From assembly GCF_001436695.1 (NCBI RefSeq), contig NZ_AYZG01000001.1, positions 186,001 through 250,000 of the forward strand: DNA of 64,000 nucleotides, given 5' to 3'. A model generated the notes under the pieces. The model was not told the origin of the DNA. It saw nothing but the letters and a program-made list of their open reading frames with translations, and made no database searches. The stretch is from Lactobacillus taiwanensis DSM 21401. Its GTDB lineage: Bacteria; Bacillota; Bacilli; Lactobacillales; Lactobacillaceae. Positions 9,196 through 61,474 of the stretch are shown here, in pieces; the stretch's first letter is position 1, and each line of letters begins with the position of its first letter. Position numbers and translations under genes: made by a program.

Positions 9196-11349
9196 CTATC
9201 TGTAAGTTCCCCATACTTGGTTATTTAAACGACCTACTAAATAGCCGTATTGACCATTTGCTCTTGGTTGTCTTAACCATACATAGTTACCAGAACGGTA
9301 GTACGCATCGTACTTAATTACAGTATTAATTGGTAAAGTCTCAATAATTGGGCTCTTAGTGCTTGCACCAGTTCTTAGGTTAATTGCTCCACCAGTAATG
9401 AAAGTGCCATTTTGTTTAGTCCAAGTAACGTTATTATTAGTTGCTACTTGCTTTTGAGTATTTTGTTGAACAGGTTTATTAACGTTAGTATTTGCAGGTT
9501 TACTTGCTTCTGCAGAACCTTCTTTGAATGTTCCCCAAGCATTACCGTTATTACGTCCTACTAAGTAACCATATTGACCGTTTGCTCTTGGTTGTCTTAA
9601 CCATGTGTATTGGCCTTCTGTACGGTATGCATCATATTTAACTTCAGTATTTGCTGGAAGTTGAGCAATAACACTACTATTAGTGCTTGCACCAGTTCTT
9701 AGGTTAATTTCACCGCCAGTAACGAACACACCATTTTGCTTAGTCCAGTCACTATTTACATTAGTGTTTGTATTGTTGTGTACTGGTTGACTTGGCTTGT
9801 TATTGTTTTGAGCTGGTTTGTTGTTAGTTGCAGGTTTACTTGCTTCTGCGGAACCTTCTTTGAATGTTCCCCAAGCACTGCCGTTATTACGTCCTACTAA
9901 GTAACCATATTGACCGTTTGCTCTTGGTTGTCTTAACCATGTGTATTGGCCTTCTGTACGGTATGCATCGTATTTAACTTCGGTGTTTGTTGGAAGTTGA
10001 GCAATAACACTACTATTAGTGCTGGCACCAGTTCTTAGGTTAATTTCACCGCCAGTAACGAATACACCATTTTGCTTAGTCCAGTCACTATTTACATTAG
10101 TGTTTGTATTGTTATGTACTAGTTGACTTGGCTTAGCTGTGTTTTGAGCTGGTTTGTTAGTATTTTCAGCTGGTTTATCAACGTTATTATTGTTAGTTGC
10201 TGGCTTAGTTACTTCATTAGCAACTGAGTTTGTCTTGAAAGTACCCCAATCTTGACCGTTTGCACGACCTACTAAATAGCCATATTGATTATTTGCACGT
10301 GGTTGTCTTAACCATGTGTAATTACCTTTGGTGCTATATGCATCATACTTAACTTCAGTATTTGCTGGAAGTTGAGCAATAACGCTACTATTAGTACTTG
10401 CACCGGTTCTTAAATTGATCGCTCCACCAGTAGTAAAAGTACCTTCTTGCTTAACCCAGCTAGTATCAACCGTTTTGTTGTCATTAATAAATGGATTTGC
10501 AGGTGCTTGACTACTACTTTGAGAACTAGTATTAACGTTTGACGTATTAGTACTTGTACTTGCATTAGAGCTACTGTTTTGACTTGCACCATTACCTTTA
10601 TTTGAAAGGGGAACTACGTTAACATTTCCATCAACATTTTGACCACGCCAATTTTGTGTATATTGCCAAATAGCTACATTATCCATTGACGGGAAGTAAT
10701 TGTAGTCAGGATTATCTTCACGACCATTAGTTTTGTACTTAGCTACCCATAATGAATTTGGATATTTTTCAGTGATCTTATTAGTATCTACCTTATTCTT
10801 TAATAGCGACTCACTAGAATATAGCATTGGATTATATCCACCATTGTGAACAGTATCCATAAAACTAGTAATTGCATTAGTATTATCTTCGATACTACCA
10901 GTAGTCTTGTTATTAGGATCTTGTTCCCAATCAGCTGCTAAATACGATCCTTGTTGTAATCCAGCAGATTTTGCAGAATTAACTGCATAATTTCCTTCTT
11001 GAACGGCTTGATTACTGTTATCACCAAAGTGAGTATAGTGATACCCCAAAGTCATCATATTATTTTGCTCAGCACTAGAAATTTGTCCTTGAGCTCTAGG
11101 GTTTTGATAATTTGTACCTTCAGATACCTTCACTACAGCAAATTGAGCCCCTGACTTAGCTTGTTGAGTTAAGTCCTTGCCTTGCCAACTCGAAACATCT
11201 ACACCAGCAGATTTTGCAGGTACAGTATCAGTTGCGGCTTGTGCTACTTGATGAGTTTTAGTAACTCCCACAGGATCAATAATTGCTAAAGCTGTCATAG
11301 CACTAGCACAAGCTAATGCACTAATAAATTTCTTATTTGTTGAACGCAT
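9196..11349 (-). CDS. Secreted GH25 muramidase (lysozyme) with four SH3-like C-terminal repeats
   Basis: The 717-residue precursor has a signal peptide (cleavage about AQA-AT, residue 38). A GH25 domain follows (about 48-250) with catalytic residues in GVDVSSWQG (Asp51) and LAADWEQD (Asp140, Glu142). After a Ser/Thr/Asn linker come four bacterial SH3-type repeats (about 297-372, 422-497, 533-609, 641-717), each with GGxINLRTGAS, the WLRQPRA block and YGYLVGR. It cleaves the MurNAc-GlcNAc bond, and the repeats bind the wall. It lies 53 bases after the GH73 gene with no terminator between, so the two may be co-transcribed. Confidence 0.95.
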   Translation of the reverse strand: MRSTNKKFISALACASAMTALAIIDPVGVTKTHQVAQAATDTVPAKSAGVDVSSWQGKDLTQQAKSGAQFAVVKVSEGTNYQNPRAQGQISSAEQNNMMTLGYHYTHFGDNSNQAVQEGNYAVNSAKSAGLQQGSYLAADWEQDPNNKTTGSIEDNTNAITSFMDTVHNGGYNPMLYSSESLLKNKVDTNKITEKYPNSLWVAKYKTNGREDNPDYNYFPSMDNVAIWQYTQNWRGQNVDGNVNVVPLSNKGNGASQNSSSNASTSTNTSNVNTSSQSSSQAPANPFINDNKTVDTSWVKQEGTFTTGGAINLRTGASTNSSVIAQLPANTEVKYDAYSTKGNYTWLRQPRANNQYGYLVGRANGQDWGTFKTNSVANEVTKPATNNNNVDKPAENTNKPAQNTAKPSQLVHNNTNTNVNSDWTKQNGVFVTGGEINLRTGASTNSSVIAQLPTNTEVKYDAYRTEGQYTWLRQPRANGQYGYLVGRNNGSAWGTFKEGSAEASKPATNNKPAQNNNKPSQPVHNNTNTNVNSDWTKQNGVFVTGGEINLRTGASTNSSVIAQLPANTEVKYDAYRTEGQYTWLRQPRANGQYGYLVGRNNGNAWGTFKEGSAEASKPANTNVNKPVQQNTQKQVATNNNVTWTKQNGTFITGGAINLRTGASTKSPIIETLPINTVIKYDAYYRSGNYVWLRQPRANGQYGYLVGRLNNQVWGTYR
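9492..10162 (-). repeat. Two tandem near-identical direct repeats of 336-base period inside the GH25 gene
   Basis: The segments 9492-9823 and 9828-10162, encoding the second and third SH3-like repeats with linkers, differ at only a few bases over about 300. The outer two repeats are more diverged. Such tandem identity allows gain or loss of one repeat by recombination. Confidence 0.85.
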
Positions 11350-57363: not shown

Positions 57364-58488
57364 TTAGATTATTTGCTTATGACCATTTTGAGAAACTGCT
57401 ATCATCTGTTGAGATTTCCTAGCATATTCAACATTATTTTGTTCAATTACTCTCAAGGTATCTGAAATTTCTTTATCGGTATTATTGCTTGCAATAATTG
57501 CTGCTTCAATATTTTGTGCAGATCCTATTACATTATTGCTAAGTTCATTGATATTATCATTAACTCGCATTAACTGATTATTTGTCTGCTTTAAGCCTCT
57601 TCCAATTTCACGAGTTGACTTCTTTACTGTTATTCCTAAGTCAGCTAAGTTATTATTAACCTCATTTAGGCCCTGACCAATGGTCTTTTGCAGTTCTTTT
57701 TGACTTTCAGCAATCTGCATTTTCAGTTGTTGATTCAATTCTGCTCTTTCAAAACGATCCTCAACAACTTTTATTGCTTCACCTAAAGTACTTACTTGAT
57801 TTGTATCAATTACTTCATATAAAGATAAAATATAACCAGGATTCAATTGACGTCGTGCGGGCAATTTTATAAGATCTGCCGGCTTCTTTCTTTTCACATT
57901 CTCTACTTCTTTTTTCGCACTTGTTACCAAATTATGATCCACATTATTTTTTATAGTCTGTAATTTAGGAATACTGTCATTTAATTTATTTATTTCAGTA
58001 GACATATTTTGTGTATTGGATTTTATAGCCTCATTTAGATTGGCAATTCTGGCAATGTGGGGAGCATTTATTTTGTTATATTCTTCCTCATATCTTTTCT
58101 TTTTATCAAAGTTATACCATCCCCATATCCCAAGCGCAGATAATATAATCAATATGAATGTAGCCCATCCATTAAAATGAAGGGCACCTTTTAAATTGAA
58201 GATAATCAATAATATTCCAATTCCACCAGCGACATATCTTCCTTGCGGCACATCCACATTAGTTGGCTTTTCTAAATTAGGAGAATAGCTCACATTAGTA
58301 GTTTTATATAATTCATTTAAATCGTTAATTCTATTTTGCGTCTGAACAATCTGGTCATTAAGTAATTTAGATTTGTTTTCCGCATCTTTTAAAGAATTAT
58401 TTGCCTGTTGAACATTTAGGGCGTAAAAGTATGCTTGTTTAATTCCTTGCAGTAACTCTGTCTTTTTCATGTTTTTACTTTGCTCCAT
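57364..58488 (-). CDS. Coiled-coil membrane protein
   Basis: I start at the ATG at 58488 (MEQSKNMKKTELL); the ATG at 58470 with GGAG upstream is an alternative. The longer frame crosses the preceding terminator. The 374-residue product has a helical N-terminus, a coiled coil (about 20-65), two close membrane helices (YVAGGIGILLIIFNLKGAL; FILIILSALGIWGWYNF) and a long helical cytoplasmic C-terminal part with Asn/Gln/Glu heptads (NEVNNNLADLGITVKKSTRE, RVNDNINELSNNVIGSAQNI). It looks like a scaffold or sensor in the membrane, not an enzyme. No family recognised. Confidence 0.7.
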   Translation of the reverse strand: MEQSKNMKKTELLQGIKQAYFYALNVQQANNSLKDAENKSKLLNDQIVQTQNRINDLNELYKTTNVSYSPNLEKPTNVDVPQGRYVAGGIGILLIIFNLKGALHFNGWATFILIILSALGIWGWYNFDKKKRYEEEYNKINAPHIARIANLNEAIKSNTQNMSTEINKLNDSIPKLQTIKNNVDHNLVTSAKKEVENVKRKKPADLIKLPARRQLNPGYILSLYEVIDTNQVSTLGEAIKVVEDRFERAELNQQLKMQIAESQKELQKTIGQGLNEVNNNLADLGITVKKSTREIGRGLKQTNNQLMRVNDNINELSNNVIGSAQNIEAAIIASNNTDKEISDTLRVIEQNNVEYARKSQQMIAVSQNGHKQII

Positions 58489-58507
58489 GCCACTTTTTGT
58501 TCTACAA

Positions 58508-58542
58508 AAAAAGTATATTCGGTTGGGAATATACTTTTTAAT
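58508..58542 (-). terminator. Terminator of the LPQAG protein gene
   Basis: The minus-strand stem AAAAAGTATATTC / GAATATACTTTTT with loop CCAACC is followed by T residues, just after the stop of the surface protein gene. Confidence 0.85.
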
Positions 58543-58572
58543 CATCCAATCAGTAGTTATCTCTAAATACAA

Positions 58573-60072
58573 CTAATTATTCTTTCGCTTGCGATCTACG
58601 CCTAGAGCACCTAAACCAAGAGATGCGATTGACAAACCAGCTAAACTTGCGAATAAGCTAATCTTTTCATCAGTACCTGCTTGAGGCAACCTCTTTTCGT
58701 TAGAAGTAGCTACTTTTCCATTATTCACTGTGGAAGCATGATTTGCGGTAGCTTTGTTAGTGTTTACCTTGTTGCTTAATGCGACAGTTTGAACAGCATT
58801 AGACTTAGTAGCTACATTACCTGATTGAGCTACAGACTTGTTTGAAGTTAAACTATTTACAACGACTTGAGGATTAGCTGAATTCTTTACACTGTCACTA
58901 GTCTGCGCATTTTTAACTTCAACACCTGATTGAGTAGCAGTAGTTGAAGTTTCAGATTTAGAATTAGAAGTCTTCTTATCTGTTGGAACAGTTACAGTAG
59001 TACTATCATTCTTCTTAATATCAGTAGCTTCATTGTTCTTTGAAGAGTTAGTCTTTGTAGAAACTTGTGAGTTTGAATTCTTGTTGCTATCAGTTGTAGC
59101 TTGATCCTTGCCAGTATCTGAACTATTTTCGTTAGATTTGATTCCGTGAACTCTGTTGTAGGCATCTTTATCTACCTTGATAAGTTCCTTATTGTAAACA
59201 AACCATGGGATAACAGTTTTATTTTCAGTATTATTTGTGCTATCACTATCTGTCTCTCCCTCGCCTCTACCGTGTTCGTCTTTATTATCAGGACTAAAAG
59301 TAAATTCACCAAACTCAATAGTATTTGGATCTGTGTTAGCTAAAACCCAATTTTTATCTTTTCTAACATTTCTTGCTACCAATTCAGCTAGCTTATCGCT
59401 ATAGCTATTTTCTTCATTCTTATAATCTGAGTTACTAATAGAATGACGTGCACCTAGTAAAGTAGCCAAATATGGATTTTCGATTGTATTCCAAATATTA
59501 TCTACAGCATTCACATTAGAGTCATATTTACTCCAATTTTTATCTTTCTCCTGCCTGTCCAGATTATCCAAAATATTACCTGTAGTTGGAAGAGGTACCT
59601 TTTTTAAACTATCTGTCGCATTTTTTCTAGTATTAGCAAGTGTAGACTTATTCTGAACCGCATCATTTAAATACGCATCTACTTCATTTTTAGCATTATT
59701 AAGTTTACTATTCATTTTTGACCAGTTAAGATCAGTTGTATCTACGTGAGCCAACCATTTTCCATCAGCAGAGTGTATTCCAGTTCCCGTTGCATCTGGA
59801 TCGGTAACTGCTGTTTGATATTCTTCTTCACCCATATGCCCTATCGCAGCATGATATTGCTTCATAGCAATATCTTTCAATTCTTCTTTACTTGGGGTTT
59901 TAGTAGCAACTTGATTAGCACTAGCATTTGTATTATTTTGCTTTACTTCAGTACTATTCACATTATTGCTATTATTTGCTTGCACAGCATCAGCTTTAGC
60001 AACATTTCCACTGACTGCAAAAGCACCAGCTACAAACAATGCTGACATTAACATCGTTGTTCTTCTCTTCAT
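58573..60072 (-). CDS. LPXTG-type (LPQAG) cell-wall surface protein
   Basis: The start is ATG 60072 (MKRRTTMLMS), eight bases after GGAGG; an in-frame TTG earlier is not needed. The 499-residue precursor has a signal peptide (cleavage about AKA-DA), a globular helical domain (about 55-290; AMKQYHAAIGHMGEEEYQTA, YSDKLAELVARNVRKDKNWV) and a long Ser/Thr/Asn/Val-rich stalk. The sorting signal LPQAG follows, with hydrophobic helix and KRKNN tail. LPQAG departs from LPXTG at the fourth position (Ala for Thr). Probably sortase-anchored. Its promoter carries a G8 tract. Confidence 0.85.
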   Translation of the reverse strand: MKRRTTMLMSALFVAGAFAVSGNVAKADAVQANNSNNVNSTEVKQNNTNASANQVATKTPSKEELKDIAMKQYHAAIGHMGEEEYQTAVTDPDATGTGIHSADGKWLAHVDTTDLNWSKMNSKLNNAKNEVDAYLNDAVQNKSTLANTRKNATDSLKKVPLPTTGNILDNLDRQEKDKNWSKYDSNVNAVDNIWNTIENPYLATLLGARHSISNSDYKNEENSYSDKLAELVARNVRKDKNWVLANTDPNTIEFGEFTFSPDNKDEHGRGEGETDSDSTNNTENKTVIPWFVYNKELIKVDKDAYNRVHGIKSNENSSDTGKDQATTDSNKNSNSQVSTKTNSSKNNEATDIKKNDSTTVTVPTDKKTSNSKSETSTTATQSGVEVKNAQTSDSVKNSANPQVVVNSLTSNKSVAQSGNVATKSNAVQTVALSNKVNTNKATANHASTVNNGKVATSNEKRLPQAGTDEKISLFASLAGLSIASLGLGALGVDRKRKNN

Positions 60073-60116
60073 TCTTACATCCTCCAAATATAATAAATAA
60101 CGGTTGATACAAGGCT

Positions 60117-60147
60117 AGTTTACCCCCCCCATTTTTATTTTCGTCAA
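60117..60147 (-). promoter_or_regulatory. Promoter with G8 tract in the spacer (candidate phase-variable switch)
   Basis: On the minus strand TTGACG (60142-60147) is followed by an 11-base A/T run, then eight G (60123-60130), then TAAACT (60117-60122). The spacer is 19 bases, two above optimal. Loss of two G would restore 17. Transcript start would fall about 60110, giving a leader of about 38 bases and a good ribosome site. No other run of eight or more G or C was seen in this window. Confidence 0.75.
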
Positions 60148-60304
60148 GAGTTTTCACACAATTAATTGAAAAAATTATAACGTTGTCGTTTTAAACCACT
60201 GTGTCACAGCATTCTAATTCGTCCTCTAAAAAACAAAAAAGACTTAACTTCCACTTACTAAAATAGAAACTAAGTCTTCTTTTCCCTATATAAAATCAAT
60301 TTAT

Positions 60305-61474
60305 TTAACTATTTGCAATTTCTTTAAAATGAGAAGCTAAATCTTGGTTAGCAGTTGGATGAACTACCACATAACCTCCATTTGTCGTCTGATCAACCAA
60401 GGCAACTGGTTCTCCATGATAAAAACAGAACAGATACGTTATATGATCTTCTGCACTTTTACCATTATGATTAAAAATAGCAACTACATTGTATGTATCA
60501 CTGCCATTATCTTTATTAATTACTTGCGGATTCCATTTCAACTTAATAGTTTCCATATCTTTAGGATCCCTACTATCATGATCTCTAGAGCTCAATTTAA
60601 ATGGGTAAGTATCTTCACTAATATCGCGTGGGAAATGCTCTCCAGCTAATGTTACCAGATCATCTTCTCCTTCATTATAATGCTCATAAGATTGATGCAT
60701 CTTCTTGCCGAATTCATCCATATAACTAATTAATTCATCATTTTGGTTATTTGACCATAGCCAGTCTTTAGATGCAGTCTTCTTAGATTTTGTGTTAGTT
60801 TTTGAACTCCGATCATTAGCTTTTTCATCCGACTTACCAGTAACAATCGATAGATTATCATTCCAAATATTTACATTTTTCTCCGTGTTTTCAGATTTAA
60901 TTTCTGGATAAATCTGAGTTAAAACACTTCTATTACTGTAGCTAGACTTATTTCCAACATAAGTTATCTCTTTATTATCCTTAGAAACTAAATAGCCAAC
61001 CTGATCATTTATAACATACAATCTACTTCCGTCAGTAGCACTGATCTCATAATCTCCAAAACGATATTTTGAATAACTTTCTATTGTTAAGTGACCGCTT
61101 CTTAAATCATCAGCTGCTTCTCCCCATTTTTTGCCATATTTTTTATCAGCATAAAGGATTGCCCAAGCAGCTAGTTGCTTACTTGGAATCTTTTTAATCT
61201 CAGCACTAGTTAATTTTCCATTACCACCAATCACAGTGCTATTAGACGAATTTCGACTATGTTGATACAAGCCCCAGCCACCAAAAATAAGGATAAATAC
61301 GGCGATAATTGATCCAATAATAATATTTCTTTTTTGGGATTTTAATCTATTGCTGTGAATTTCACTTCTTTTAGGCATCTCAGAATTGGAAGATATAACT
61401 AACCTTCCGCAATGTGGACAGAATCGATCCGTAGGCTTAATTGATTTCCCACAATGGGGACAAAATTTATTCAT
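60305..61474 (-). CDS. Zinc-ribbon, membrane-anchored DUF4767-type protein
   Basis: The 389-residue protein opens with two CxxC zinc knuckles (FCPHCGKSIKPTDRFCPHCG, residues 4-23). One membrane helix follows (IIIGSIIAVFILIFGGWGLY). A first outside region (about 85-200; IPSKQLAAWAILYADKKYG), a Ser/Lys linker and a DUF4767-like domain (about 240-389; DWLWSNNQNDELISYMDEFG, TYLFCFYHGEPVALVDQTTN) complete it. It faces the outside with the zinc ribbon inside. DUF4767 proteins are common in lactobacilli and of unknown role. Monocistronic; a hairpin of plain AT sequence lies after it. Confidence 0.85.
   Translation of the reverse strand: MNKFCPHCGKSIKPTDRFCPHCGRLVISSNSEMPKRSEIHSNRLKSQKRNIIIGSIIAVFILIFGGWGLYQHSRNSSNSTVIGGNGKLTSAEIKKIPSKQLAAWAILYADKKYGKKWGEAADDLRSGHLTIESYSKYRFGDYEISATDGSRLYVINDQVGYLVSKDNKEITYVGNKSSYSNRSVLTQIYPEIKSENTEKNVNIWNDNLSIVTGKSDEKANDRSSKTNTKSKKTASKDWLWSNNQNDELISYMDEFGKKMHQSYEHYNEGEDDLVTLAGEHFPRDISEDTYPFKLSSRDHDSRDPKDMETIKLKWNPQVINKDNGSDTYNVVAIFNHNGKSAEDHITYLFCFYHGEPVALVDQTTNGGYVVVHPTANQDLASHFKEIANS

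Follow-up and report, generated by a model that had tools for sequence, protein, structure and literature searches.

In Neisseria meningitidis, the surface-protein genes porA, fetA and opc carry unstable homopolymers between the -10 and -35 hexamers of their promoters (PMC2791445, in excerpt). In the gut commensal Bifidobacterium breve UCC2003, sortase-dependent pili are switched by slippage of G-tracts that lie in their coding frame, as measured by deep sequencing; in its excerpted parts, that paper mentions promoter-spacer G-tracts without data, as outside its scope (PMC9187656). The sabA gene of Helicobacter pylori has repeat tracts both in its promoter region and in a further place of the same adhesin gene (PMC2715451, in excerpt).

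The locus described here lies in a stretch of 64,000 nucleotides from Lactobacillus taiwanensis DSM 21401 (the window), where a run of eight G separates the hexamers of a candidate promoter upstream of a gene for an LPQAG-anchored surface protein. As in porA, fetA and opc, a homopolymer occupies the spacer of a surface-protein promoter (PMC2791445), and as in the B. breve pili, a G-tract is associated with surface structures of a gut commensal, except that the pilus tracts lie in the coding frame and not in a promoter as in Lactobacillus (PMC9187656). The two tract places of sabA find a parallel in a YSIRK adhesin gene of genome G021 and a SEC10/PgrA-type gene of genome G014, each of which has a promoter tract together with a coding tract (PMC2715451). 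However, the sabA product is unrelated to the LPQAG protein, and unlike the promoters of the Gram-negative N. meningitidis, the Lactobacillus cassette is common to several genes, has its G nearly always on the coding strand and has tracts of 7-9. Neisserial tracts run longer than this, the repeats of sabA are of other types and positions, and Bifidobacterium belongs to a different phylum from Lactobacillus.

The earlier note on this DNA knew of no described case in Lactobacillus. This agrees with the open-access literature, where, by title and start of abstract, no homopolymer promoter switch in Lactobacillus was found among the matches listed. A 2025 review (PMC11868660) has no occurrence of "lactobacill", and in PMC4667430, PMC2246268 and PMC6607858 phase variation or contingency is matched in the reference lists only. 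The kind of promoter is known; its use as a shared cassette in this genus appears to be undescribed in openly licensed literature.

The candidate promoter and its gene

Every element that the earlier note had placed in line (TTGACG, an 11-base A/T run, eight G, TAAACT, a ribosome site and a start 45 bases downstream) is present on the minus strand (Table 1), with the ATG at 60072 starting 44 nt past the -10 hexamer. The spacer, AAAATAAAAATGGGGGGGG, is 19 bp long with G8, the length given in the earlier note. This promoter is absent from a standard promoter scan, which allows spacers of 16-18 only. With a homopolymer between its putative -35 and -10 hexamers, the promoter would resemble those of the porA/opc/fetA type. 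A perfect odd palindrome, CTGTGACACAG, at window positions 60199-60209, some 50 nt before the -35 hexamer, is a possible operator.

Table 1. Coordinates of the candidate promoter, its gene and the related promoter-like region before the EPS-type cluster (window positions unless a contig is given)
Feature	Position	Strand	Basis or remark
-35 hexamer TTGACG	60142..60147	-	sequence
A/T-rich spacer part, 11 A/T, AAAATAAAAAT	60131..60141	-	sequence
G8 tract, candidate slippage switch	60123..60130	-	sequence; related copies have 7-9 G or GGGAGGGG
-10 hexamer TAAACT	60117..60122	-	TAAACT, TAAAAT or TAGACT in relatives
AGCCTTGTATC, conserved start of presumed transcript	60106..60116	-	consensus AggcTtGTATc in 11-copy profile
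Ribosome-binding site GGAGG	60081..60085	-	8 nt before ATG 60072
Gene for 499-aa LPQAG-anchored surface protein	58573..60072	-	signal-peptide-like start MKRRTTMLMSALFVAGAFAVSGNVAKA (by eye)
LPQAG sortase motif	58675..58689	-	translation; position counted from ORF end
Terminator-like hairpin 3' of upstream gene (60305-61474)	60235..60282	-	consensus match
G9 in promoter-like spacer (L099, L117)	own genome, C27:349845-349875		about 160 nt before LytR-CpsA-Psr (LCP) gene, PF03816

The product is probably surface-exposed, given its apparent signal peptide, its LPQAG motif and a match to the PF00746 anchor, which is its sole Pfam match. A two-sequence fold model was uninformative (mean pLDDT 31.7), a PDB sequence search returned only matches at E 0.23 or more, and a genome-contig search with the protein gave 27 candidate stretches, none of which was confirmed. 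Because a terminator-like hairpin stands behind the upstream gene, the LPQAG gene probably needs its own promoter, which suggests a transcription unit of its own. A 402-aa ORF without a Pfam match (57364-58572, mechanical TTG start) follows directly on the same strand and may be co-transcribed. An origin of the locus in a plasmid or phage was considered and dropped, there being no match in plasmids or phages.

It might seem that a run of eight G is remarkable in itself, and the earlier note had called it rare. This holds within the 64 kb of the window, where G8 occurs once on either strand against a mean of 0.07 in 100 shuffles, but not genome-wide. The genome has 11 G tracts of at least 7, five of them of at least 8 (17 overlapping matches), and simulations built from the window's composition (6 Mb each) gave 1 tract of at least 8 at order 2 and 9 at order 3, i.e., about 0.3 to 3 at this genome size. 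We therefore reject the idea that rarity alone makes G8 remarkable: the run on its own is near chance, at most mildly unusual for such a genome. Its position, in contrast, is not near chance. A promoter-like layout with G7 occurred 0 times in the two 6-Mb simulations, both strands included, and the layout recurs in relatives.

Recurrence of the layout in related genomes

The stricter pattern, TTGACN7AAAATGGGNGGN{0,9}TANANT, has 13 matches, spread over 8 of the 75 genomes of the genus, and none in the reversed control. A looser one, TTGACN{3,14}G7N{0,9}TANANT, has 19 matches in 12 of the 75 (reversed control, 1), and its poly-C version a single match. With five G and freer gaps, at least 22 matches are found, in 14 genomes, against 5 for the reversed pattern, and the additional ones mostly look like chance. 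In 397 genomes of the family, the G7 pattern finds 24 matches in 19 genomes, of which 12 are in the genus, and 3 matches in the reversed control. Five of the 12 matches outside the genus precede a secreted-looking N-terminus (by eye), two are upstream of what we take to be an rplM-like gene and one is upstream of a presumably hrcA-like gene. Given these contexts and the control matches, part of the family set may be chance.

The downstream genes were surveyed at 21 genus loci: the 19 looser-pattern matches, the second copy in the L. taiwanensis genome and a copy with GGGAGGGG in G023. Sixteen are followed by a secreted or surface protein, two by a membrane protein, one by the EPS-type cluster and two by no ORF of at least 100 aa; secretion was judged by eye, and the ORFs in G014, in G023 (twice) and at the G021 YSIRK gene are shortened. 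The SEC10/PgrA surface-exclusion domain is present in 6 of 9 downstream proteins scanned for domains, a set in which the LPQAG protein of the window had no match, and one of the targets is a levansucrase-type GH68 protein. The second copy in the L. taiwanensis genome (C27:24151 onward) stands before a SEC10/PgrA surface protein; its G8 is immediately followed by a string of N. The two intact-looking promoters without an ORF of at least 100 aa behind them are at C1:68473-68503 in G060 and C12:25546-25576 in G071.

A pattern search of genome contigs returned nine stretches. Four are from Lactobacillus, namely L. johnsonii and two metagenome bins. In a fifth, from a Ligilactobacillus bin, the same layout precedes an LPQTG-type protein, with G7 and a spacer of 18 bp. 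The remaining four, from unrelated bacteria, look like chance. The viral contigs of IMG/VR have 4 pattern matches.

In interpreting the conservation among copies, it is important to separate what was observed from what the patterns impose. TTGAC is present in 13 of 13 readable copies but is part of the search pattern, and the stricter pattern also fixes AAAAT and how far the tract lies from TTGAC. Among the five-G matches listed, no johnsonii-group copy with at least 7 G has another TTGAC-to-tract spacing. The conservation profile comprises 11 copies, omitting two near copies (G059 and G071b) as well as the second L. taiwanensis copy (N gap). The flanks upstream are poorly conserved in these copies, and the hexamers, the tract (both partly pattern-fixed) and the presumed transcript start are kept.

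G tracts are not confined to this cassette. In what we call the johnsonii group, meaning the ten genomes that match the EPS promoter region strongly (about 18 Mb), there are 42 tracts of at least 8 G against about 28 expected under an order-3 model. Promoter spacers account for 19 of these, 13 of the cassette/YSIRK type (two without an ORF) and 6 of the EPS type; a further 7 lie inside secreted or surface ORFs (by eye), 6 are upstream of murC and 10 are elsewhere. The LytR-CpsA-Psr gene behind the G9 listed in Table 1 heads the EPS-type cluster. The corresponding promoter in ten sequences has tracts of 7, 7, 8, 8, 8, 9, 9 and 9 G and two that are interrupted; the spacer is 18 in six of them, 16 in two, and 15 and 19 in one each. 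A second -10-like hexamer, TATAAT, is found further downstream, so the G-tract promoter may not be the cluster's only one.

Several tracts are noted in their own right. The frame of a YSIRK adhesin breaks at a coding G tract in the L. taiwanensis genome (G7; C33:5359-5628, L102) and in G021, where the gene (C1:1498063-1498618, L183) has a promoter G9 besides. About 300 nt upstream of a gene that we take to be murC, six genomes of the group have a G8-G10 tract (C14:14790-14797 in L. taiwanensis, L101; elsewhere L180, L186, L189, L191 and L194), with no clear ORF seen around it in those six. In the L. taiwanensis genome, a gene resembling phosphatidylserine decarboxylase (PF02666) is preceded by a TTGACC hexamer with a C8 run behind it (C4:150040-150047, L100).

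Tract length and the competing explanations

Taken together with the layout, the recurrence with 7 to 9 G suggests that surface proteins may be switched by gain or loss of single bases. The best reading of the locus would be a phase-variable promoter like those of porA and opc, operated by slipped-strand mispairing, within a wider set of G tracts in the species group. More specifically, we consider it probable that G8 is a simple-sequence contingency element in a sigma-A promoter that belongs to a family of such promoters, slippage altering both the spacing and transcription of the LPQAG-protein gene. Slipped-strand mispairing would add or remove a single G, the G count would set the -35/-10 spacing (19 with G8, 18 with G7, 17 with G6), and the change in spacing would alter the level of transcription in subpopulations of cells. 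Because its spacer is 19, the sequenced G8 allele is probably a weak state, and a tract one or two G shorter should give higher output; that shorter is stronger accords with general knowledge of sigma-A promoters, for which 17 is the usual optimum. Other members of the family would drive further surface proteins, many of them with SEC10/PgrA domains, in L. johnsonii and related species, beside the similar tract of the EPS-type cluster and the tracts inside adhesin reading frames.

The comparison of tract lengths in related genomes that the earlier note had proposed does reveal variation. Among the 13 readable surface-promoter copies, tracts run from 7 to 9 G or read GGGAGGGG; nine copies have a spacer of 19 and four one of 20, and lengths differ between lineages. 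G023 (L. johnsonii ATCC 33200) and G024 share the hexamers and the A/T part, TTGACTTAGTTGAAAAT...TTAAACT, and have 8 and 7 G, respectively. These differences among close relatives concern other members of the cassette family, the window locus itself being represented by one genome.

The closest comparison is between G059 and G060, with G9 and G8 in the promoter tract. Upstream of this promoter, 300 of 300 positions are identical; in the 400 nt from the promoter there are 0 mismatches and the tract is the sole internal indel (the other gap is the end of the aligned piece), and the next 1,000 nt have 1 mismatch. The whole alignment of 52.8 kb has 932 mismatches and 39 indels, with 37 of the indels in the first 9.4 kb, where much of the sequence is repetitive. 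The remaining 45 kb (beyond position 9,400, a cut chosen after the alignment had been seen) has 316 mismatches and two indels, namely this tract and one A run. There are 8 mismatches in its final 21.8 kb, the part containing the promoter. Only 1 of the 122 other homopolymer runs of at least 6 in the 45 kb differs. A separate piece of 4.5 kb has 45 mismatches and an indel in one A run, and the other G tracts of the pair are equal (EPS, G9/G9; upstream of murC, G9/G9). However, the G059 sequence comes from a metagenome bin and that of G060 from an assembly in one contig, so either could be in error at the homopolymer.

The proposal of a phase-variable promoter is thus supported in part, by the layout, by its recurrence before surface proteins and by variation in length between lineages, but it lacks an allele with the 17-bp spacer: none occurs among the 13 surface and 10 EPS promoters of the johnsonii group. 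As a background for spacer length, exact TTGACA-TATAAT pairs in 5 genomes (45 matches, 68 in the reversed control) gave no usable peak, nor did a search with mismatches on about 126 kb.

The narrow range of lengths (19-20 in all 13 readable copies) leads to the most serious alternative, which we nevertheless consider unlikely: that the run is a fixed part of a specialised promoter, G-rich non-template DNA by the -10 hexamer setting a weak or regulated state through sigma contacts or a bound regulator, and that length variation is incidental. The strong strand bias (19 G matches against 1 C match) would fit such a role, though poly-C would slip too, as would the fact that the G run abuts or nearly abuts the -10 hexamer in surface-gene promoters of other lineages. 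A fixed element does not sit well with lengths that differ among copies sharing the same hexamers and A/T part, and between the two members of a nearly identical pair, or with spacers of 15 (G036, C5) and 16 (G058); nor would it explain the G tracts in the reading frames of adhesins, which are unlikely to serve a promoter. That poly-C is almost missing and the lengths vary so little suggests that the G run may in addition act directly beside the -10 hexamer.

It is improbable that the run is a product of chance or decay, neutral in effect, lying in a weak promoter and spread by surface-gene duplication and gene conversion. Most matches in the genus are indeed one homologous cassette, two copies have no substantial ORF behind them, several downstream ORFs are shortened (G014 and both G023 copies) and the genome-wide count of G8 is near chance. 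However, the reversed controls gave 0 and 1 matches and the poly-C control 1, a similar layout is found in promoters that otherwise differ in sequence (G036, the G021 YSIRK gene and the EPS cluster), and the hexamers, tract and presumed transcript start, although partly fixed by the pattern, are kept where upstream flanks are not. Finally, a MerR-type promoter, whose long 19-bp spacer is twisted into register by an activator, is very improbable despite the uniformly long spacers of the surface-gene copies, as spacer length varies across copies and AAAATAAAAATGGGGGGGG has no inverted repeat that could serve as the dyad operator of such promoters.

Implications for the surface of gut lactobacilli

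The slippage reading can be extended, tentatively and at a little short of even chances, to a G-tract phasome in L. johnsonii and its close relatives and, less so, in other Lactobacillaceae, e.g., Ligilactobacillus. A shared, strand-fixed G(7-9) cassette abutting the -10 hexamer would independently tune several adhesins, a similar promoter would tune the EPS cluster and some adhesins would be under a double lock, with one tract in the promoter and another in the coding frame; a single clone could thereby give rise to many surface types in the gut. The strand bias poses a mechanistic question, because slippage would be expected of poly-C too. Members of this group of lactobacilli are known as gut commensals and as probiotics. 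If true, a heritable and reversible switch in adhesin and EPS promoters could explain variation in adhesion and exopolysaccharide between cultures, and one sequenced colony would not define a strain's surface.
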